A stretch of 64,000 nt of DNA, taken from NCBI RefSeq assembly GCF_016908635.1, contig NZ_JAFBEG010000002.1, forward strand, positions 1-64,000, given 5' to 3'. Of the stretch, positions 4,761-27,079 are shown one piece after another. This stretch comes from Sporohalobacter salinus (GTDB lineage Bacteria; Bacillota; Halanaerobiia; Halobacteroidales; Acetohalobiaceae). The position numbers and the translations under genes are program-made. Each line of letters begins with the position of its first letter. The stretch's first letter is position 1. Below the pieces are notes generated by a model. It had not been told where the DNA came from. It searched no databases and saw nothing but the letters and a program-made list of their open reading frames with translations.

Positions 4761-5093
4761 TTAACGTAGAGAAACTGGAACTACTAATTTTTGACCAGGT
4801 TTAATTAAATCAGGATTAGAAATATAATTAAATTCTATAATAGTATCTATTTGTGTACCATATTCTTGGGCTATTGAATAAAGAGTATCATTAGGTTGGA
4901 CCGTATAAATAATAGCTTCTGGAGGAGATTCAGGGATAACAATCTTTTGTCCAACAGAAATAATATCTGGATCAGGAATAGAATTAAAAGCTAATATATT
5001 TGATACTGTTGTATTATATCTTTGAGCAATTTTAGATAAAGTATCCCTGGGTTTTACAGTATAGGGAAAAGTTCCTAATGGAGCAGTAGGCAT
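4761..5093 (-). CDS. Double LysM protein
   Basis: A 110-residue protein made of little more than two LysM modules. Repeat one is at about residues 9-53 (YTVKPRDTLSKIAQRYNTT to VGQKIVIPE) and repeat two at about 60-106 (YTVQPNDTLYSIAQEYGTQ to PGQKLVVPV). LysM modules bind N-acetylglucosamine-containing glycan. The short MPTAPLGTFP leader is not a signal peptide, so the protein is either cytosolic or enters the spore envelope from the mother cell. The ribosome site AGGGAGGAAATAAT fixes the start. A weak sigma-K-like promoter lies upstream and the related LysM-BsuPI gene is 4 kb away. Confidence 0.85.
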   Translation of the reverse strand: MPTAPLGTFPYTVKPRDTLSKIAQRYNTTVSNILAFNSIPDPDIISVGQKIVIPESPPEAIIYTVQPNDTLYSIAQEYGTQIDTIIEFNYISNPDLIKPGQKLVVPVSLR

Positions 5094-5316: not shown

Positions 5317-6090
5317 TTATGTTTTTAGATTTTTTATTTTAGTCTTGATTAAATCGCTTTTAATTTTGATTACTTTTGTAGTATCTTGTTTAACGGCAAT
5401 TTCTAAATCTTTGACTGCTTTATTTACTTCTTTTATCTTTTTCTTATTTTTGGTTTTAATTTTTACTTTTAGGTCTGATACTAAGTTCTTTAATTTATTG
5501 ATATCAGCTAACTTTTTATTCTTACTTTCATCTAACCAAGTTAGATAAACAATTTTCCTTGTATAAGCAATTATTTTCTTTTTTATTCCTATTTTGGCAT
5601 CGTATTTATTATATAGTTTAGCTAAATTCAAATGAAATTGATTAGCTTTCCAAAGAGAAATTAAAATTTTTTTCTGAGTGGCTACTTCAGTTAAGTCGTT
5701 TAATTTTTGTTCAATCTTATTTAGCTTTTTTCCATCAAGCTTACTTTCAGTTTCATAACTATTCCAGTCTTGGTGTATTTTCTTAATCTTTTTTTCAATT
5801 TTATTCCAAGTTTTTTCTTTCTTAGAAGGATTCTGTTTTTTATTTTTTTCTTTTTGCTTTTTTTTCTTTTGCTTCTCTTTTTTTTGCTTTTTTTTCTGAG
5901 TTTCTTTTTTTCTTTTTAAATAAAATTCTTCTAAATCGTTTATTGTTTGATTTGTATTAAGAACTACGCTAGTAAATTTAGATGGTATTTTGCTTTTCTT
6001 AGGTTTAGATTTAGGTTTTTGTTGACTACAACTTATGATTAACATAGAAATAATTGAAAGTAATATAATTAATTTAATTTTTTTTCTCAC
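5317..6090 (-). CDS. Lysine-rich lipoprotein of unknown function
   Basis: A 257-residue protein starting at GTG, preceded by AGGAG at eight bases; an upstream ATG is poorly placed. The N-terminus (VRKKIKLIILLSIISMLIISC) is a lipoprotein signal peptide with the lipobox IISC, so the mature protein should be lipid-anchored outside the membrane. It contains an almost pure Lys/Glu/Gln stretch (about residues 58-95, repeats of KKKQK and KEKQ). The remainder is strongly charged and probably helical or coiled-coil, with WLDESKNKK near the middle. I do not recognise a family. The low-complexity run is A/T homopolymer-rich in DNA and prone to slippage. Confidence 0.7.
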   Translation of the reverse strand: MRKKIKLIILLSIISMLIISCSQQKPKSKPKKSKIPSKFTSVVLNTNQTINDLEEFYLKRKKETQKKKQKKEKQKKKKQKEKNKKQNPSKKEKTWNKIEKKIKKIHQDWNSYETESKLDGKKLNKIEQKLNDLTEVATQKKILISLWKANQFHLNLAKLYNKYDAKIGIKKKIIAYTRKIVYLTWLDESKNKKLADINKLKNLVSDLKVKIKTKNKKKIKEVNKAVKDLEIAVKQDTTKVIKIKSDLIKTKIKNLKT

Positions 6091-8980: not shown

Positions 8981-9094
8981 AATATTTTTTTAATTTTTTC
9001 TCACAATTTGATCAAAAAATAATTCTATATTGATAAATAGAAGTATGAATTTGAGAATTGACTAATGTAAATTAATGATCTGGAGGGGAATTTA

Positions 9095-9411: not shown

Positions 9412-10557
9412 ATGGAAAGAAATAAAAAGTTTTTAGTGTGCACCTGCATTGTAATGATAGCAATTTTACTCGGAGGTACTATGATTTCTTCTTCTGTAAA
9501 AGCCTTTTGGGGTGATGATGACCAAAATACAGATAATTCACAACAGAGTAAGAAAGAAGTTGTTGTTCCACAAGAAAAGGTAGTCAAAAACGTGGTTAAA
9601 AAGGTAGGACCAGCTGTAGTTAGTATTATAACTAAAGATATCGAGTTTATTGATAATCAAGTTTTTGCTCCAATACCACAACAGAAAAAGGGGATTGGTT
9701 CAGGGATTATTATTGATGAAGAAGGTTATATTTTGACTAATAATCATGTGATCCAAGATGCAGATAAGATTAAAGTTATGTTATCGAATGGGAAGAAATT
9801 GAAAGCTAAACTAATAGGGAGAGAGGTTAGAAATGATTTAGCAGTGATTAAAGTTGATAAGGATGATTTACCAGTAGCTCCTTTAGGTAATTCTAAAAAG
9901 TTAAAAGTAGGCGAATTAGCTATTGCAATTGGTAGTCCTTATGGTCTTGAATTTCGCAACACAGTAACTACAGGAGTTATTAGTGCTTTGGGGAGAGAAA
10001 TTAGAGCTCATAATCGAGATGGGCAGATTATGTTAGAAAATTTAATTCAAACTGATGCTTCAATTAATCCTGGCAATAGTGGAGGACCATTACTAAATAG
10101 TCAAGGAGAAGTAATTGGAATTAATACAGCAATGATGAATAATGCTCAAGGAATGGGCTTTTCGATTCCTATCAATAAAGCGAAAAAAATAGTAGATGAT
10201 TTAATTGAATATGGTAAAGTTAAACGGCCTTGGCTTGGAATTTATGGATCTAAATTAACTAAGAAGGTAGCTGCTTATTATAATCTCCCAGTCAATACTG
10301 GAGTAATAGTTGCTCGAGTTATTCCAGATAGTCCTGCAGCTAAAGCAGGGTTATCAAGTAAAGATATAATTACAGAGGCTAATCATCAAGAGGTGAGCGG
10401 GATGAACGATCTTAAAAAGATCATTAATGAAAAAGATATAGGAGATCAATTAAAATTATTAGTTTTCAAAGTAGATCAAGGTCAATTAACACCGTTTACA
10501 GTTACTTTAGGAGAAATGCCTACTAAAAAAGAAATGTTTACTAAAGAACAAAGATAA
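9412..10557 (+). CDS. HtrA/DegP-type serine protease
   Basis: A 381-residue envelope quality-control protease of family S1C. An N-terminal membrane anchor or signal (about residues 6-27) exposes the rest outside the cytoplasm. The trypsin-like domain carries the triad His (LTNNHVIQDA), Asp (RNDLAVIKV) and Ser (NPGNSGGPLL). One PDZ domain follows (about 280-365: GVIVARVIPDSPAAKAGLSSKD). The start follows GAGGGGGAATAAATC. Its position after a WalRK-like pair matches the classical wal locus neighbourhood. A second HtrA is encoded at 33.5-34.6 kb; this copy lacks the Asn/Gln-rich linker of that one. Confidence 0.93.
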   Translation: MERNKKFLVCTCIVMIAILLGGTMISSSVKAFWGDDDQNTDNSQQSKKEVVVPQEKVVKNVVKKVGPAVVSIITKDIEFIDNQVFAPIPQQKKGIGSGIIIDEEGYILTNNHVIQDADKIKVMLSNGKKLKAKLIGREVRNDLAVIKVDKDDLPVAPLGNSKKLKVGELAIAIGSPYGLEFRNTVTTGVISALGREIRAHNRDGQIMLENLIQTDASINPGNSGGPLLNSQGEVIGINTAMMNNAQGMGFSIPINKAKKIVDDLIEYGKVKRPWLGIYGSKLTKKVAAYYNLPVNTGVIVARVIPDSPAAKAGLSSKDIITEANHQEVSGMNDLKKIINEKDIGDQLKLLVFKVDQGQLTPFTVTLGEMPTKKEMFTKEQR

Positions 10558-10674
10558 AGCTTGAATAAATTAAAGTAGTTAAGACTACTATTATGCTAAT
10601 TATAACTAGTTATATTTTCCTAACTTTTGGCTAAGTTAGTGTTGGGGATTATTATTTATATTTTAGAGATTAGT

Positions 10675-10705: not shown

Positions 10706-10891
10706 AATTTATTTATGGGGAGTTTTTGCAGGTTTATTTTTAACAGAAATTTAGATTAATAAGTTATTTTTTAGAGGAAAATTATTCCTCATGTTGTAAT
10801 AAAGTAATGGGGTGATTTTAAAGTGGCTTCTTAATCAAGAGATAATAGTTTCATATAACTTAACAGAACTTATATTATTATGAGGAGGTAA

Positions 10892-11725
10892 ATGATGAAA
10901 ATTAAAAAAGTAAGTATTTTATTTATGATTATCTGTGTTATTATGTTTTTTACTCAGATAGGTTTTTGTGCGAAGAAAACGGTAGCTGTAGTTGATTTTA
11001 CGAATAATACTAATTATCGGATACCTAATATTGGAAATACAGCTGGAACGAATCTTTCTACTTTATTAGTAAATGAAGGACAGTTTAGAATTGTTGAAAG
11101 AACAAAGTTAAAAGATATTATGCAAGAGCAAGAATTTTCACAATCAGGTTTGGTTAACCAAAATGCTACAGCTATAAAATTAGGTAAACTTTTAGGGGCT
11201 CAATATATAGTTACTGGTTCTATAACTAATCTGGATATAGAAGAGAAGACATTTGAGGGTTATGATATTGAGAGTACTAAATTAAAAATAAGACTTGAAA
11301 GTAATATTAAAATGATTAATGTTAATACAGGAGTAATTGAATTAGCTAATATTTATTCTACTGAAAAAAGTTATCAGGTGGCAGATACTCATTCGATAAA
11401 TGTAAATAGTAAAGCTAGAATTTTACTCAAAGATGTTTTACAAAAATGTGCAACAGACATTAGTAAAATAGGAAGTTCCCAAAAGGAAAAAGCAAAAGAA
11501 GTTACAGTAAAGTTTACTTCCGATCCTTCTGGAGCTAGCATTGAGGTTGATGGAATATATGTAGGCAGTACTTCTGCAGAAATTCCAGTGAAAAAAGGAA
11601 TTCATGTAGTAAAGATTTCTATGGGAGGATATGAATCTTGGAAGAAAAAAGTGAAATTTTATGACGGTTTTAAAGTTAAAGCTAACTTAGGGAAGAAGTC
11701 TAAGAAAGAAAGTGAGGATAAGTAA
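10892..11725 (+). CDS. CsgG-like secreted protein with C-terminal PEGA domain
   Basis: A 277-residue exported protein. A signal peptide (residues about 1-26, ending GFCA) is followed by a CsgG-type domain (about 28-195). The tell-tale phrases are VAVVDFTNN, FRIVERTKLKDIMQEQEFSQSG and LGKLLGAQYIVTGSITN. Residues about 205-265 form a PEGA domain (VKFTSDPSGASIEVDGIYVGST, GIHVVKISMGGYESW), a surface-associated beta fold. CsgG is an outer-membrane curli exporter in Proteobacteria. In Gram-positive-type or clostridial genomes such proteins are of unknown role. The stop overlaps the start of the next gene (ATGAG context), so the pair is coupled. AGGAGG precedes the start; a second ATG three bases on is equally possible. 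Confidence 0.85.
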   Translation: MMKIKKVSILFMIICVIMFFTQIGFCAKKTVAVVDFTNNTNYRIPNIGNTAGTNLSTLLVNEGQFRIVERTKLKDIMQEQEFSQSGLVNQNATAIKLGKLLGAQYIVTGSITNLDIEEKTFEGYDIESTKLKIRLESNIKMINVNTGVIELANIYSTEKSYQVADTHSINVNSKARILLKDVLQKCATDISKIGSSQKEKAKEVTVKFTSDPSGASIEVDGIYVGSTSAEIPVKKGIHVVKISMGGYESWKKKVKFYDGFKVKANLGKKSKKESEDK

Positions 11726-20542: not shown

Positions 20543-20728
20543 TTATTCTTCTCCAAATAACCCACCAAATCCACCGCCGCTAAATAATAGAAAGACAACT
20601 AAAATGATTAGAATCCATTCAAATTTAATGCCACCAAAACTACCAAATCCTCCAAACCCTTCTGTGGATTCATCTTCGATTCGATCAGTAGTTGGCTGAG
20701 CCATACCTTCTGTTGTTGGTTCTTCCAT
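20543..20728 (-). CDS. Sporulation-type micro-protein, 61 residues, Gly/Phe-rich end
   Basis: An acidic, Thr/Glu-rich N-terminus (METPTTEG-like, residues 1-25) is followed by GFGGFGSFGG, a hydrophobic helix (FEWILIILVVFLLFSGG) and the end GGGFGGLFGEE. The end matches that of the 47-residue protein at 24278-24421 (GGGFGGLFNE). It should sit in or on a membrane. A sigma-K-like promoter with 17-base spacing precedes it. AAAGGGGG is the ribosome site, placed rather far (about 12 bases) from ATG. It belongs to the micro-protein set of this island; no known family is assignable, though it recalls YjcZ-type small sporulation proteins. Confidence 0.75.
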   Translation of the reverse strand: MEEPTTEGMAQPTTDRIEDESTEGFGGFGSFGGIKFEWILIILVVFLLFSGGGFGGLFGEE

Positions 20729-20850: not shown

Positions 20851-20967
20851 TTAGTCTGCATCAAAGAATCCAAATACTCCTCCATTACAGAGGCAACTAA
20901 TTAAGAAGACTACCAAAATTAATTCAATATAACAACTGTCACAGAAATCATAGTCACAATCAGGCAT
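20851..20967 (-). CDS. Cys-rich sporulation-type micro-protein (38 residues), copy 1
   Basis: The peptide has an acidic, Cys-bearing N-terminus (MPDCDYDFCDSCY), a hydrophobic segment ELILVVFLISCLC and the end GGVFGFFDAD. It is 38 residues long with five cysteines and follows an AGGAGGTTAAGAAAG ribosome site. The same gene recurs at 23774-23893 with about 80 percent identical residues and conserved C-terminus, which shows that this short frame is real. It lies 42 bases after a 34-residue gene and shares its promoter. The Cys pattern could bind metal or form disulfide cross-links in a coat. No family is recognised. Confidence 0.82.
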   Translation of the reverse strand: MPDCDYDFCDSCYIELILVVFLISCLCNGGVFGFFDAD

Positions 20968-21009: not shown

Positions 21010-21114
21010 TTAATAATCATAGCGGAAGATACCATTTCCAATTTGTTGTAAGATTAGAATAACGATTAGAATTACAACAGGATCAGCTTCAAAATAATCA
21101 AAACCTCCTGGCAT
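21010..21114 (-). CDS. Sporulation-type micro-protein with ADP...LILQQI segment (34 residues), copy 1
   Basis: The peptide begins MPGGFDYFEADPVVIL and its core is ADPVVILIVILILQQI, ending in a short polar tail with Tyr (RYDY). It is a single hydrophobic helix capped by acidic residues. The ribosome site GAAAGGAGGTATCTTCA is strong. A near-identical copy lies at 24011-24115 (28 of 34 residues the same), and the N-terminus of the subtilisin-like protease at 25028 carries a similar core (ADPIETLITILILQQI). It is the first gene after a sigma-K-like promoter. Function is unknown; a role in spore coat or membrane assembly is inferred. Confidence 0.83.
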   Translation of the reverse strand: MPGGFDYFEADPVVILIVILILQQIGNGIFRYDY

Positions 21115-21180: not shown

Positions 21181-21209
21181 TATAATATGTCTGTAAAGCT
21201 AGAACTGTG
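21181..21209 (-). promoter_or_regulatory. Sigma-K-like promoter of cassette 1
   Basis: Minus strand CAC, 17 bases, CATATTATA: a full match to CATANNNTA. About 70 bases upstream of the 34-residue gene. Confidence 0.75.
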
Positions 21210-21423
21210 AGGAATGAATTTAGTTTTTGAAGTAGGACAAAACAATTTATTTAGTTATTTTTCTATAATTTGGAATTTGCTTATTTTCCAAGTAATCTGC
21301 TAAAATTATCACTAACTCTTCTTTTTTATAAATGTTTTTTAATCAATAATATAGTATGTGAGTCGTACTTTAATTGTGTAGATTAGTTTTTAATATAAAA
21401 TAAAAATATTAAAGGGAACAACT

Positions 21424-22780
21424 TTGATATTAAAAATGAAATTTAAGTTATGTATTTATAAATCTAATTTTACTATTATGCAAAAATTAAGTCCGAAAGC
21501 AATTATAGAAGCAGGAATGCGGGCTGAATCTGGTAAGCCAATTGAACGGCCGCTAGGTAGTCCTAATATTCAATCTGAATGGCAGAAGCTCTTTTTAAAT
21601 CCAGTTTATTTATTTAAATTGCCGATACAGGATGGAGTACAGATTCAAACTACGACAACCTATTGGGGCACAAGCCAAAAAACCTCTTAAATTGGAACTG
21701 CCGATTTTATTAGCTGGGATGTCCTATGGTGGAGCTTTAAGTTTAAATGCTAAAGTAGCTTTGGCTAGAGCTTCTGCTAGGGCAGGAACAGCTACTAACT
21801 CTGGTGAGGCTCCATTAGTTGATGAAGAGTGCGAGGAAGCAAAGTACTTTATTGGTCAGTATAATCGCGGTGGATGGATGAATCAACCCGAACAATTAAG
21901 TCAACTGGATGCAATCGAAATTCAGTTAGGACAAGGTGCTCAAGCTGCAGCTCCTATGGGAATGTCATCACATCAGATTGGAAAGGATTTACGTCAAGCT
22001 AAAAATTTGAAACCTGGCGAAGATGCAGTTATTCATACTCGCTTGTCAGAAATGAAGCAGCCATCTGATTTTTTTGAGATTGTCCAACAGCTTAGAGATG
22101 ATTATGGAGTGCCGGTGGGGCTGAAATTCTGTGCAACCCACTATTTAGAACAAGAACTGGAGATGGCTATTAAAGCCGAAATTGATTATGTAGTAGTTGA
22201 TGGCGCTGAAGCTGGAACACATGGAGGACCTACAACTTTACAAGATGATGTTGGTTTACCCATACTTCATGCTTTATCAAGAACAGTAAAATTTTTAGAA
22301 AAAAAAGAAGTCAAAGATCAGATTTCGGTTATTGCTTCTGGAGGTTTGACAACACCAGGCCATTTTCTAAAAGCTCTGGCTTTAGGGGCAGATGCTGTTT
22401 ATATCGGTTCGATTGCTTTAATGGCTCTTTTACAGACGCAGATGACTAAGGCTTTGCCTCAGGAACCGCCGCCTCAAATCCCCTTATATTTAGGGAAGTT
22501 TAAGGAAAATTTAGATGTAGAGGAATTAACAGAGCATCTGGCTAAATTCTTGAAGTCATGTTTAGAAGAGATGAAATTGACTGTTTATTCTTTAGGAAAG
22601 ACTGATTTAGCTCAGTTAAACCGAAAAGATCTTGTATGTGTAGACCAGGAATTAGCTAAAGTATTAGGAATAGATTATGCTGGATATCCACAATTGGACT
22701 CAACTTCAGTGTTAGAGTCTAATATTGAATCTGAATTATTTAAAAAAGATAATGAAAAGCCACAACCGACTAGACATTAG
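21424..22780 (+). pseudogene. Glutamate-synthase-like FMN protein, broken by a one-base frameshift
   Basis: The reading frame begins at TTG with AAAGGG seven bases upstream and encodes MQKLSPKAIIEAGMRAESGK and ERPLGSPN, typical of the FMN domain family (PF01645-like). It runs into TAA at 21688-21690. One extra base near 21660 (ACC-T-ATTGGG) restores the frame: the product then reads TTTTIGAQAKKPLKLELPILLAGM. It continues through FMN-site phrases (VVVDGAEAGTHGGPTT, VIASGGLTTPGHFLKALALGADAVYIGS). The combined product is about 450 residues, as expected. The family makes glutamate or an unknown amino-transfer product; the frame break makes function doubtful unless it is a sequencing error. The gene sits between the two copies of the micro-protein cassette. 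Confidence 0.85.
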
Positions 22781-23594: not shown

Positions 23595-23690
23595 TTAATA
23601 TCTTCTAAAGAAACGTCTGAAGAAGAAAAAGAAAAGGAATGGAAGTATACTACTTAAAAGCAGTTCAATATTGATTTGACCATATAATAT
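23595..23690 (-). pseudogene. Micro-protein relic without start codon
   Basis: The minus strand reads GQINIELLLSSILPFLFFFF then RRFFRRY and a stop. It is an amphipathic, Phe-rich hydrophobic helix like those of the other micro-proteins. The frame has no ATG, GTG or TTG and no ribosome site; its upstream end runs into the -10 box of a sigma-K-like promoter. A deletion has probably removed the leader and N-terminus. The promoter and terminator remain intact. Possibly a novel leaderless gene starts in the overlapping frame, but that frame stops after nine codons. Confidence 0.5.
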
Positions 23691-23711
23691 GTTACTAATA
23701 GACTAATCGTG
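23683..23711 (-). promoter_or_regulatory. Sigma-K-like promoter in front of the relic
   Basis: Minus strand CAC, 17 bases, CATATTATA. Homologous to the promoter at 20765-20793 (shared GTTACTAA element). Confidence 0.65.
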
Positions 23712-23719
23712 AAGAATTT

Positions 23720-23773: not shown

Positions 23774-23893
23774 TTAGTCTGCATCAAAGAATCCAAATAC
23801 TCCTCCACTGCAGAGACAGCTAATTAAAAAGACTACCAGAATTAATTCAACATAGCAACTGCAGCCACAGAAGTCATGATCAAAATCAGGCAT
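23774..23893 (-). CDS. Cys-rich sporulation-type micro-protein (39 residues), copy 2
   Basis: Second copy of the 38-residue peptide. N-terminus MPDFDHDFCGCSCYV, hydrophobic segment ELILVVFLISCLC, end GGVFGFFDAD. The hydrophobic and C-terminal parts are nearly unchanged, while the N-terminus has shifted its cysteines from CxxxxCxxC (copy 1) to CGCSC. AGGAGGCTAAGAAAG precedes the start. It probably shares a transcript with the upstream 34-residue gene, since no good promoter box of its own is seen within the 117-base gap. Confidence 0.82.
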   Translation of the reverse strand: MPDFDHDFCGCSCYVELILVVFLISCLCSGGVFGFFDAD

Positions 23894-24010: not shown

Positions 24011-24115
24011 TTAATAGTCATAACTAAAGACCCCTTTTCCAACTTGTTGTAAGATTAAGATGACAATTAAGATTACAACAGGATCAGCGTCGAAATAATC
24101 AAATCCCCCTGGCAT
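24011..24115 (-). CDS. Sporulation-type micro-protein with ADP...LILQQ segment (34 residues), copy 2
   Basis: MPGGFDYFDADPVVIL, core DADPVVILIVILILQQV and a C-terminal SYDY. Same length and design as copy 1, with mostly conservative changes (E/D, I/V, R/S). Purifying-type differences between copies suggest that both were or are expressed as protein. Strong ribosome site AAAGGAGGTATTCTCA. First gene after the promoter at 24196-24224. Confidence 0.83.
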   Translation of the reverse strand: MPGGFDYFDADPVVILIVILILQQVGKGVFSYDY

Positions 24116-24195: not shown

Positions 24196-24224
24196 ATAAT
24201 ATGTCTTTATAGTTGGAATTGTGA
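24196..24224 (-). promoter_or_regulatory. Sigma-K-like promoter of cassette 2
   Basis: Minus strand CAC, 17 bases, CATATTATA; full match to CATANNNTA. Confidence 0.75.
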
Positions 24225-24277
24225 ATAAGGCTTTTGAAGTCTTGGATAGATCAAAAATTGATTCATCTATAATTTGA

Positions 24278-24421
24278 TTATTCATTAAATAATCCGCCAA
24301 AGCCTCCACCGAAGTGATCAAAAATAATTATAAAAGCAAAGATCCAGATGAGTATTTCAAAGAAACTATCAAAGTAGCCCTCTAATTCAGCAGACTCAAA
24401 ATCAAAAAAATCTTCTTGCAT
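24278..24421 (-). CDS. Sporulation-type micro-protein (47 residues), Gly/Phe end
   Basis: Acidic N-terminus (MQEDFFDFESAELEGYFD), hydrophobic helix (FFEILIWIFAFIIIF), end DHFGGGFGGLFNE. The end matches the 61-residue protein at 20543-20728, so the two are diverged members of one type. AAAGGAGGAATAATA precedes ATG, and a sigma-K-like promoter with 17-base spacer lies 40 bases further upstream. No family recognised. Confidence 0.8.
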   Translation of the reverse strand: MQEDFFDFESAELEGYFDSFFEILIWIFAFIIIFDHFGGGFGGLFNE

Positions 24422-24568: not shown

Positions 24569-24775
24569 TTATAACTGAGATTGATCAATATTATTTTGAT
24601 TAATTAACTGAGATAGTAGTTTTTTCATTTTATCTTGGTTTATTTCAGATTCATCATCTGTATTATCCAGTTCATTTACCATTCTAGTCATTACTTCATG
24701 ATTATTATCTGATAAAAAGTCGTCAAATTGACTAATTAAGGCTTTAATATCTTTTAAAGATGTTTCATCTTCCAT
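24569..24775 (-). CDS. Small acidic protein (68 residues) with sporulation-type promoter
   Basis: A soluble, strongly acidic, helical protein (MEDETSLKDIKALIS, NELDNTDDESEINQD, LLSQLINQNN). I chose the second ATG, eight bases after AGGAGG, instead of one 24 bases earlier inside the ribosome-site region. Unlike the other micro-proteins it has no hydrophobic helix. Sigma-K-like promoter with 17-base spacer upstream and its own terminator. Function unknown; coordinate expression with the neighbouring coat-type genes is inferred. Confidence 0.78.
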   Translation of the reverse strand: MEDETSLKDIKALISQFDDFLSDNNHEVMTRMVNELDNTDDESEINQDKMKKLLSQLINQNNIDQSQL

Positions 24776-24824: not shown

Positions 24825-24853
24825 TATATTATGTTGTTATTACTAGAAAAGTG
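24825..24853 (-). promoter_or_regulatory. Sigma-K-like promoter of the 68-residue gene
   Basis: Minus strand CAC, 17 bases, CATAATATA. Confidence 0.75.
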
Positions 24854-24957
24854 AAAAAACTTATTTAATAATCCCTGACTTAAATTTAGATTTATCTTAT
24901 TGTTTAAAATTTGGTCCTTTAATTATGTCTTTTAATATACTTCACGACAAAATCATT

Positions 24958-24986
24958 CCCGATTTAGTTATGGGTAACATATTATG
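24958..24986 (+). promoter_or_regulatory. Sigma-K-like promoter of the subtilisin-like protease gene
   Basis: Plus strand CCC, 17 bases, CATATTATG. The -10 box differs at the last base; the -35 is CCC rather than CAC. It is the only plus-strand member of the set, divergent from the 68-residue gene. Confidence 0.5.
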
Positions 24987-25027
24987 TACTAGATTTTATT
25001 TTAAGAGGGAAGGAGGTGTATAAATAG

Positions 25028-26359
25028 ATGTATTCAGCTGACCCGATAGAGACTTTAATTACAATTCTTATTTTACAACAAATAACTATCAAAGTTAGTG
25101 ATTTTAATTCTGGGGGTTACTCTGGTCAAAGGAAAGATGGGATCCATCGCCCAAAAGGAGGTTCTCATGATAATTTAGTTAAAGAACAGCCAAACCAAGA
25201 ATATAATAAACCTAATCAAAGCAAAAAAGATACTAACAAAAATGATTTTCCATCTAATCAACAAAATAAAGACCTTAAAAGTGAACCATCAGACTATATA
25301 ATAATTTATGACCGGTATTTAAATGAAGATGAATTACAAGAGAAGGTAGAATTACAGAGAGAAAATGGGCAGGTTAGAAAAAAATTGCCTTTAATTAATG
25401 GAGTTGCTTGTCAATTAGAAGATGGAGACCATAGAGCTGAAGTTGAATCTATTAGCGGAGTAAAAAGAGTAGATGAAGACTTAACTTTAGAGATTAAGTC
25501 ACCAGAATTTAAATTAGAATCCGAGCAATCATTATCAGGAGATGTTGTTCCTTGGGGAGTAGAAACAATTAATACTCTAGATGCCTGGTCCAATTTAAAA
25601 GTAAAAGTGGGAATTATCGATACAGGCATAGATTTAAATCATTTTGATCTATTACCTATAAATTCAGGTTATAACACTATTGAACCTGACCAACAACCTT
25701 ATGATCCAAATGGTCATGGTACTCATGTTGCTGGCACAATAGCTGCCCGAAAGAATAATAAAGGAGTAGTAGGAGTAGCTCCTAATATTGAATTATATCC
25801 AATTAAAGTATTTGATAAAGACGGTTCTGCGAAGATGTCTTCTTTAATTGAAGCTTTACAATGGAGTATTGACAATAATATTCGGGTTTTAAATATGAGT
25901 TTTGGAGTTGATAAAAATAATAATTCTTTACGAGAAGCAATTGCTAAAGCTCATCAGGCTGGAATTTTAATGGTAGCAGCTGCAGGTAATGATAGTACTG
26001 CTACAGTTGATTTTCCAGCCCATTATTCAGAAGTAATTTCTGTTGGAGCAATAAATGAAGACAAAAAAATTGCTGATTTCAGTAATTATGGTACTGGTTT
26101 AGATGTTGTTGCTCCTGGCGTAAATGTTGAATCTACCTGGAAAGATGGACAATTTAATAAACTTAATGGTACTTCAATGGCTACTCCTCATGTAACAGGT
26201 ATTGCTGCTTTAATACTTGGGAAATTTAATAATCTAACCCCATCTAAAATTAAAAGAGCTATAAAAAGAGGAGCTACTCCACTACAATCTATTGATCCAG
26301 CTAAACAAGGAGCAGGTTTAATTGATGCAGCCCAAACAATAAAATTATTAAAACAGTAA
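25028..26359 (+). CDS. Subtilisin-like serine protease with micro-protein-like N-terminus
   Basis: A 443-residue S8 protease. Catalytic domain about 165-440: Asp (VGIIDTGID), His (NGHGTHVAGTIAA), oxyanion Asn (AAAGNDS) and Ser (NGTSMATPHVTG), all present. Residues about 85-155 resemble an inhibitor I9-type propeptide (DYIIIYDRYL, VRKKLPLINGVACQL), and residues 35-85 are a Gln/Asn/Lys-rich linker. There is no classical signal peptide. Instead residues 4-19 (ADPIETLITILILQQI) are close to the core of the 34-residue micro-proteins nearby. AGGAGGTG precedes the start. The likely site of action is the spore or the mother cell; B. subtilis also has sporulation subtilisins. Confidence 0.92.
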   Translation: MYSADPIETLITILILQQITIKVSDFNSGGYSGQRKDGIHRPKGGSHDNLVKEQPNQEYNKPNQSKKDTNKNDFPSNQQNKDLKSEPSDYIIIYDRYLNEDELQEKVELQRENGQVRKKLPLINGVACQLEDGDHRAEVESISGVKRVDEDLTLEIKSPEFKLESEQSLSGDVVPWGVETINTLDAWSNLKVKVGIIDTGIDLNHFDLLPINSGYNTIEPDQQPYDPNGHGTHVAGTIAARKNNKGVVGVAPNIELYPIKVFDKDGSAKMSSLIEALQWSIDNNIRVLNMSFGVDKNNNSLREAIAKAHQAGILMVAAAGNDSTATVDFPAHYSEVISVGAINEDKKIADFSNYGTGLDVVAPGVNVESTWKDGQFNKLNGTSMATPHVTGIAALILGKFNNLTPSKIKRAIKRGATPLQSIDPAKQGAGLIDAAQTIKLLKQ

Positions 26360-26461: not shown

Positions 26462-27079
26462 TTATTCCGATAATTTTTTAGATAATACTTCTGCAAGGAT
26501 ATCACTTAATTCTGATTTATCAATTTCGCTGGATTTAGAACTTTTATCTTCTTGTTCATCAGAACTGTTGTTATTAGATTGAAGATTACGTGATTTTAAT
26601 TTCTCCGTTTTATTTTGATTATGTGAATTTTGTTCATTAGATTCTGATTTTATATTTGATAGGCTGAGATTAGTGTGAGCTAATATAGTTTCTAGATCTA
26701 AGTCACCGTCAGATTGAGCTTGTATTTTATTTAATTGTTTGATAAGTGGTCCCATCTGTTCGATTGTATTTACTAGATTGATTATCTGTTCTATATTATC
26801 TGTAAAGGTGCGTAAATCAGATATACTTTCTTTTAGACTGGATTTCATTGTATTTACTAGATTGGTGTTAGCAGAAGTATTATTAGGGGAAGTCTTTTTT
26901 TGTAAATTGTTTTGATTTTCAGTTGTTTTTAGTTGGGTTTTATTTTTTGAAGCTGTCTTTTCTGTTTGGGGTTTAGATTTTTGATTATTTTGTGATTGCT
27001 TAACTTGGTTAGTATTAGATTCTTTTTTATCTTCTGCTGAATCTTTTTTTGAGCGCCGGTTTCGTCTTCGTGTAACCAT
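26462..27079 (-). CDS. Low-complexity 205-residue protein with sporulation-type promoter
   Basis: The first 75 residues are basic and Asn/Gln/Lys/Thr-rich (MVTRRRNRRSKKD). A central helical part (about 78-125: SISDLRTFTDNIEQIINLVN, IEQMGPLIKQLNKI) looks like the central helix of YqfQ-like (VrrA) proteins of Bacillus, with QxxPxxxQxGPLIKxLP as its usual form. The C-terminal 70 residues are again Asn/Ser/Glu-rich. AGGAGGAAAAAT precedes ATG. The sigma-K-like promoter (AAC-N17-CATATACTT) supports a spore role. The YqfQ comparison is tentative; such disordered composition aligns by chance easily. Confidence 0.7.
   Translation of the reverse strand: MVTRRRNRRSKKDSAEDKKESNTNQVKQSQNNQKSKPQTEKTASKNKTQLKTTENQNNLQKKTSPNNTSANTNLVNTMKSSLKESISDLRTFTDNIEQIINLVNTIEQMGPLIKQLNKIQAQSDGDLDLETILAHTNLSLSNIKSESNEQNSHNQNKTEKLKSRNLQSNNNSSDEQEDKSSKSSEIDKSELSDILAEVLSKKLSE

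Follow-up and report, generated by a model that had tools for sequence, protein, structure and literature searches.

Introduction

The exosporium leader of BclA, also called the F-Anchor (TIGR03720), docks onto ExsF (BxpB) (PMC11952670, PMC10470788). In Bacillus thuringiensis, the N-terminal motif of F-BclA resembles the hook of the F-ENA subunit, and docking onto the fibre has been proposed (PMC11952670). Motifs of 21-40 aa that are common to the products of linked genes, one of them an effector, are described as BASS (PMC12261475). The tiny-protein gene yjcZ belongs to the sigma-K regulon of B. subtilis (PMC517825), and CspB, a spore subtilase of Clostridium, keeps its prodomain bound after autoprocessing (PMC3567191). 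Tiny proteins of the spore surface are mostly without an assigned role, and a tag shared between such proteins and an enzyme would be a direct handle on them.

Here we describe a candidate for such a tag in the salt-loving, spore-gene-bearing bacterium Sporohalobacter salinus, within a stretch of 64,000 nucleotides called the window throughout. Judged from its sequence, the tag appears to follow a logic closest to that of the BclA leader and the F-ENA/F-BclA hooks, and to be a member of neither. The evidence supports reading it as a variant of the short docking tags on spore-surface proteins and extends the idea of a module that an earlier note on this DNA had put forward; the mechanism by which it would act is one that we infer.

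The likeness to the BclA leader lies in a short N-terminal segment on otherwise unrelated, here putative, spore-surface proteins and in docking into a layer made by the mother cell. The BclA leader, unlike the tag, is proline-rich and binds a folded trimer, and stand-alone micro-protein copies do not feature in its descriptions (PMC11952670, PMC10470788); the TIGR03720 model gave no match to the protease among NCBIfam matches up to E 1. With F-ENA and F-BclA the tag shares a like-for-like logic, the passenger's N-terminal motif resembling a segment of its partner, but the F-ENA subunit is a 10-kDa DUF4183 protein, whereas the segment here makes up most of a peptide of about 34 aa and has no folded domain; no cluster protein has a Pfam match to DUF4183. 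As in BASS, a short motif is common to the products of linked genes, one of which is an enzyme or effector. BASS is tied to NLR proteins, none of which was recognised among the ORFs around the tag genes, whereas the present motif is nearly pure Ile/Leu/Val and is preceded by sporulation-type promoters. The micro-proteins are like YjcZ-type proteins in being tiny and hydrophobic and in having putative mother-cell promoters; none of them matches the YjcZ profiles of Pfam or NCBIfam, and we know of no YjcZ-type protein that is fused to an enzyme. The Csp germination proteases are also subtilases with a role in the spore, which is putative here. Csp models stay far under their cut-offs for the protease (CspBA 46.2 of 1250 bits, CspC 29.5 of 675 bits), whose 443 aa hold no insert of jellyroll size, in contrast to Csp.

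A protease that begins with a micro-protein-like sequence

The window encodes, on the forward strand, a subtilisin-like protease of 443 aa (25028..26359) that belongs to the S8 subtilases by its match to PF00082 (E=1e-68) and its conserved D198/H230/S383 triad. D198, H230, N321 and S383 are invariant in this protease and two sister-genus orthologues, and the catalytic domain (residues ~175-433, 25550..26326, delimited by PF00082 and the 3whi alignment) is intact. The best solved relative is pro-subtilisin E (3whi), which phmmer aligned to query residues 90-432; because this alignment begins at residue 90, we read residues ~89-157 (25292..25498) as a subtilisin-type (I9-like) prodomain. It lies directly ahead of the catalytic domain, as in I9 pre-pro-subtilisins, with a moderate match; the Pfam I9 model itself gave no match to this region. 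A low-confidence structure model (three-sequence alignment, mean pLDDT 41) draws the expected beta-alpha-beta-beta...beta order there. Upstream, a hydrophilic, low-complexity linker (residues ~24-88, 25097..25291; pLDDT 20-30 in the same model) varies in length in an alignment of seven orthologues and paralogues, and ahead of it stands the tag, residues 4-19, ADPIETLITILILQQI (25037..25084). A strong Shine-Dalgarno sequence, AAGGAGGT, occupies 25010-25017, and since the first 100 codons of the ORF contain no alternative in-frame ATG, GTG or TTG, the tag segment is co-translated with the enzyme.

The order along the gene is tag, linker, prodomain and catalytic domain. Because the linker and prodomain separate the tag from the catalytic domain, self-cleavage should part the tag from the mature enzyme. 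With self-processing of the kind known from subtilisins, the tag would remain with the prodomain and would anchor the zymogen or its prodomain, not the mature enzyme, a point that is new relative to the earlier note.

That note had pointed to a near match between residues 4-19 and two 34-residue micro-proteins within 4 kb. Both micro-proteins are encoded on the reverse strand, at 24011..24115 (core 24041-24088) and 21010..21114 (core 21040-21087), each as an ORF with profile matches and a Shine-Dalgarno sequence, at most 4 kb from the protease. The core of the second reads ADPVVILIVILILQQI, that of the first ends in QQV, not QQI, and both contain ADPVVILIVILILQQ[IV]. The likeness holds up quantitatively: 12 of 16 residues are identical between tag and core (BLOSUM62 score 55), the best unrelated frame among the 2,075 stop-to-stop frames of the 64-kb window scores 32, and none of 200,000 shuffles of protease residues 4-23 reached 55. 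Profile A1, built from seven micro-proteins of two species only and from no protease, found three proteases (E 9e-6, 3e-5 and 7e-5), with the fourth at 0.1. Conversely, profile A8, built from four protease N-termini only, matched all seven micro-proteins (E 2.5e-7 to 4.9e-4). The best non-genus match among 13 genomes reached E 0.33 with A1 and 0.02 with A8. A chance or generic hydrophobic resemblance could appeal to the single-sequence E-value, only 0.09 over one genome, but is contradicted by the shuffles, the reciprocal profiles, the recurrence in two species and four proteases, and the physical linkage, and we consider it extremely unlikely. A degenerate ILILQ pattern was uninformative alone, with 45 matches in the organism's own genome against 42 for the reversed control.

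At the DNA level, tag and core are identical at only 33 of 48 positions, so neither a recent copy nor an assembly artefact accounts for their likeness. Five of the 16 codons are identical, seven differ synonymously and four non-synonymously; with so few codons identical and seven differing silently, the similarity dates far back and has been maintained by selection. The divergence of silent sites rules out that gene conversion has recently joined tag and micro-protein. Neither the tag nor the micro-proteins matched a Pfam or NCBIfam family, open-access literature searches returned no description of either, and the tag had no significant similarity to the Cys-rich and Gly-rich micro-proteins of the cluster.

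The tag occurs in three settings within one genus

A joint profile searched against 398 Bacillota genomes gave 7 + 6 matches within the genus, one count for each of its two species. Outside it, the best match had E 9e-4, and 86 other genomes had one at E <= 0.5, against ~200 matches expected. Non-genus matches with E 9e-4 to 0.02, inspected where practical, were set aside as chance, having no convincing start or ribosome site or lying antisense to conserved genes. Within the order, 11 further genomes lack the exact tag sequence. The micro-protein alignment was also scanned against 84,980 GTDB species genomes, a set that may omit the window's own genome or near relatives, and of its 153 pattern matches there none was confirmed. 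Among the 398 Bacillota genomes, convincing cases of the exact motif are confined to this genus.

In the window's genome and the sister species, presumably Acetohalobium arabaticum, the tag has three settings: stand-alone (4+3 genes), at the N-terminus of a protease (2+2) and as the C-terminal end of a hydrophilic protein (1+1). Two of the stand-alone genes of the window's genome are in the window, one is on contig C4 and one on contig C26. That genome's second tagged protease, protease b, is encoded at L013:10512-11741, and those of the sister species at L011:10787-12058 and L011:5673-6887; each of the four lies near stand-alone tag genes. The hydrophilic protein is 94 aa long at L013:9282-9566 and 98 aa long at L105:6315-6611; it ends in ...SRLIVILIVILILQKITVGTDLFG, and this tag is kept in both species while the remainder of the protein diverges. 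On C26, all three settings occur inside 3.3 kb, represented by protease b, a micro-protein and the protein tagged at its C-terminus. Synonymous and non-synonymous changes between the species number 6/1 in the protease tags, 11/3 in the micro-proteins and 6/4 in the C-terminal tag.

The reciprocal profiles, the 398-genome search and the fused and stand-alone copies in the sister species answer the worry, raised in the earlier note, that relatives might be lacking or that generic hydrophobic helices might score as well. Its proposal of a spore-assembly tag that exists both alone and fused gains from the module's two forms, the sister species, the third protein type, and the promoters and neighbours, which bear on the module and its sporulation context and not on the membrane recruitment, scaffolding or regulation that the note also suggested. 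A sequence restricted to one genus is not a general tag of spore-formers, and no enzyme type other than the protease was found to carry it.

The segment L013:8518-11741 of C26 forms a compact second cluster, with a tag micro-protein, a small acidic protein, the C-terminally tagged protein, a basic protein and protease b.

Promoters suggest a mother-cell context

The sigma-K consensus is AC-N16/17-CATANNNTA. Ahead of each of the seven stand-alone tag genes, and of the genes with a C-terminal tag, C-A-C stands at -35 (mostly as TTCAC, also as CTCAC or TGCAC), followed after ~16-17 bases by CATATTATAT or a close variant, in agreement with that consensus. In the window, the sigma-K-like promoters of the micro-protein genes are TTCACAATTCCAACTATAAAGACATATTAT for 24011 (24196..24225, reverse strand) and CTCACAGTTCTAGCTTTACAGACATATTAT for 21010 (21182..21211, reverse strand), both of which agree with the consensus. 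The protease is preceded by the promoter-like TTCCCGATTTAGTTATGGGTAACATATTAT (24956..24985, forward strand), in which CC replaces the AC of the consensus and the -10 is CATATTATG; all seven protease genes, from four genera, have [TC]TCCC[AG] at the -35 position and CATANNNT as the -10. The strict promoter form occurs at four sites in the 64-kb window against 0.3 expected, all inside the cluster; for a looser form the figures are five and 1.3. The interval from 21.2 to 25.0 kb contains every one of these sites. A protease-specific -35 (TTCCC[AG], not TTCAC) with the -10 unchanged, kept in four genera, may reflect another mother-cell sigma factor or another timing.

Every one of the order's 13 genomes encodes SpoIVA. 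YabG, tried as a clue, is missing from all 13 and is uninformative, since its absence throughout the order leaves no contrast. A. arabaticum is described as a Spo0A-positive non-spore-former without bofA, gerM, sleC, sleL and others (PMC3533761), and Fuchsiella as spore-forming (PMC9387241); the missing SleC is a further difference from the Csp proteases. Promoter sequences and neighbouring genes support a putative mother-cell sporulation context for the tagged genes.

Like promoters and co-occurrence, together with several stand-alone copies per genome, would also suit micro-proteins that act as regulators or substrates, free tags competing with the protease or being cut by it and so timing its activity. 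Against this, the shared part lies outside the catalytic and prodomain regions, and a non-enzyme third carrier has no use for such control; we hold this explanation to be highly improbable.

Related loci in sister genera

Orthologues of the protease occur in three sister genera, Candidatus Frackibacter, Fuchsiella alkaliacetigena and genus g4. Their N-termini are differently worded (MNIGKLLELILATNLLKQLQ, MLSKKLLKTKFLANLFNFK and MNLNILLKLLLTTNLLSQLE), more or less hydrophobic, and followed by a linker. In all three, two low-complexity coat-like proteins flank the protease, as they do protease b on C26. Another hydrophobic micro-protein, NLINLIITIFIIQFLFEALGG and variants, has four copies around the protease in each of Frackibacter and g4. 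These members of a second micro-protein family (TIFIIQFLF) lie at L072:6249-6335, 9488-9613, 10385-10576 and 10856-10951 and at L074:4430-4555, 4815-5021, 5828-5917 and 8990-9076, and several are preceded by promoters of the TTCAC...CATATTATAT kind that the window also shows. A profile of this family aligns to the present tag without gaps and with Gln in register, though weakly (hhalign E 0.0016, probability 16%).

The Frackibacter protease shows a match between its own N-terminus and the C-terminus of the 189-aa protein that flanks it (NIGKLLELILATNLLKQLQPN / SLNNILMQVVMQSLLKQLMPN; shuffle p 4e-4, uncorrected for 22 comparisons). No partner segment significantly matched the protease N-terminus in g4 or Fuchsiella, and the C-termini of the own-genome flanking proteins of 205, 198 and 257 aa do not stand out against the protease tag; only that of Frackibacter does. 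Fuchsiella, in which neither micro-protein family was found, has the least hydrophobic protease N-terminus. By sequence and in a few genomes, these loci fit a lineage-specific tag that would be common to the protease and its neighbours.

Hydropathy and the signal-peptide question

The earlier note had stated that the protease lacks an ordinary signal peptide, and composition bears this out: no Sec signal peptide was recognised, as the basic n-region is absent and the hydrophobic stretch is interrupted, with at most eight residues between polar or charged breaks and a maximal 19-residue hydropathy of 1.25. The tag might still be a repurposed or decayed signal peptide, resembling the micro-proteins by their ancestry from a truncated protease gene and having no present role. 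It does stand ahead of linker and prodomain, as a signal peptide does in pre-pro-subtilisin, and the N-terminal segments at that place have diverged in the three sister genera. Yet the tag is kept in both paralogues with mostly synonymous change between species, lacks the basic n-region and recurs on the C-terminus of an unrelated protein, which makes such a relic improbable.

The main rival to docking is membrane attachment without partner contact, in which the segment would insert into or lie on the outer forespore (or cell) membrane and the micro-proteins would use the same sequence independently. The micro-proteins and the C-terminal tag have 19-residue hydropathies above 2.1, in the usual range of membrane segments, the other micro-proteins of the cluster are likewise highly hydrophobic, and the low-confidence structure model draws protease residues 6-28 as a helix. 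The protease tags, in contrast, reach only 1.24-1.68 and are broken by E, T and QQ, and the specific identity between tag and core (ADP, QQI and the I/L order) goes beyond what hydrophobicity requires. We hold membrane attachment to be rather unlikely.

Within the genus, Ile and Leu in the tags keep to opposite parities, with a single Ile as the exception, a pattern compatible with a beta-strand and in conflict with the helix of the low-confidence model. This counts for little because the tag sequences are related.

Proposed docking into a spore layer

Beyond the observed identity of the tag, its three architectures, its conservation and its shared promoters, the reading that we favour, at about an even chance, is that the tag docks the zymogen into a mother-cell-made spore layer containing the micro-proteins. 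In the mother cell, late in sporulation, like promoters would yield the protease zymogen together with the tiny hydrophobic tag proteins and the coat-like proteins, which are basic and of low complexity. Tag proteins that stand alone would form or enter a spore layer, into which the zymogen and the 94-98-aa hydrophilic protein would be docked by like-with-like contact between tags. After self-cleavage, tag and prodomain would stay behind in the layer to serve as anchor and inhibitor, and the mature enzyme would then be held non-covalently or be released to process coat proteins. The spore location, the like-with-like contact and the anchored-prodomain step are what we infer.

Docking is favoured by the reciprocal profiles, the specificity among 398 genomes, the linkage, the C-terminal tag that is kept while its protein diverges, the mostly synonymous change of the tag, the sigma-K-like promoters and SpoIVA. 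It is also favoured by the joint recurrence of protease, flanking basic proteins and hydrophobic micro-proteins in Frackibacter and g4, by the terminal match in Frackibacter, and by Fuchsiella, which has no such micro-proteins and the least hydrophobic protease N-terminus. The weak homology of the micro-proteins across genera, the lack of a partner match in g4 and Fuchsiella, the listing of A. arabaticum as a non-spore-former and the protease -35 of TTCCC, as opposed to TTCAC in the micro-protein genes, argue against it.

A more specific version, which we regard as rather doubtful, takes the Ile/Leu-alternating segment as a homotypic beta-strand (steric-zipper) module. The multi-copy micro-proteins would then polymerise into spore-surface material and use the same strand to recruit the zymogen and a further protein, with the pairing sequence renewed lineage by lineage. 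If true, the steric-zipper version would amount to an assembly code made of peptides only and distinct from the exosporium leader and ENA hook systems known so far.

Under the docking reading, a tag that occurs free, on the N-terminus of an enzyme and on the C-terminus of a third protein would predict which proteins share a layer, and would suggest a way of storing a protease zymogen in the spore through its prodomain. The case also illustrates that the address label of an enzyme which looks ordinary can be read from micro-proteins that automatic annotation is liable to overlook.

Neighbouring genes of the cluster

A partner micro-protein, Cys-rich and hydrophobic, adjoins the tag micro-protein at six of seven loci. 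In the window, these partners are encoded on the reverse strand downstream of micro-protein 24011 (39 aa, 23774..23893) and of micro-protein 21010 (38 aa, 20851..20967). They read ..CGCSCYxELILVVFLISCLCxGGVFGFFDAD and match no family. Also on the reverse strand are a Gly-rich hydrophobic protein of 61 aa that ends in GGGFGGLFGEE and has a TTCAC / CATATGATGT promoter (20543..20728), a second one that ends in GGGFGGLFNE (24278..24421; 47 aa from an ATG preceded by a Shine-Dalgarno sequence), and a small acidic protein ending in NDIDxSxL, conserved with the cluster across genera (24569..24775), with its sigma-K-like promoter at 24826-24855.

Convergent with the protease lies the gene of a 205-aa basic, low-complexity, coat-like protein (26462..27079, reverse strand), at whose place a related-looking protein sits in the sister genera. 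The flanking low-complexity coat-like proteins had no Pfam match. Relatives of the protein at 26462-27079 are encoded in L011, L013, L072, L073 and L074; in the sister genera, most of them close with an amphipathic-looking segment, for example LNNILMQVVMQSLLKQL, and they have a central stretch like LRTFADDLEQLVKTVEPM in common.

A remnant of a micro-protein gene is visible at ~23595-23713 on the reverse strand, where a sigma-K-like promoter (23684-23713) and the C-terminal half (..GQINIELLLSSILPFLFFFFFRRFFRRY) are left and the start codon and N-terminal part are gone; the sister species has an intact 37-aa ORF (L011:6977-7090). At 21424-22780 on the forward strand, a pair of ORFs overlap in different frames where the sister species has a single glutamate-synthase-like gene of 471 aa (L011:8660-10075), and because both match that single gene, the copy in the window looks frameshifted or affected by a sequence error.
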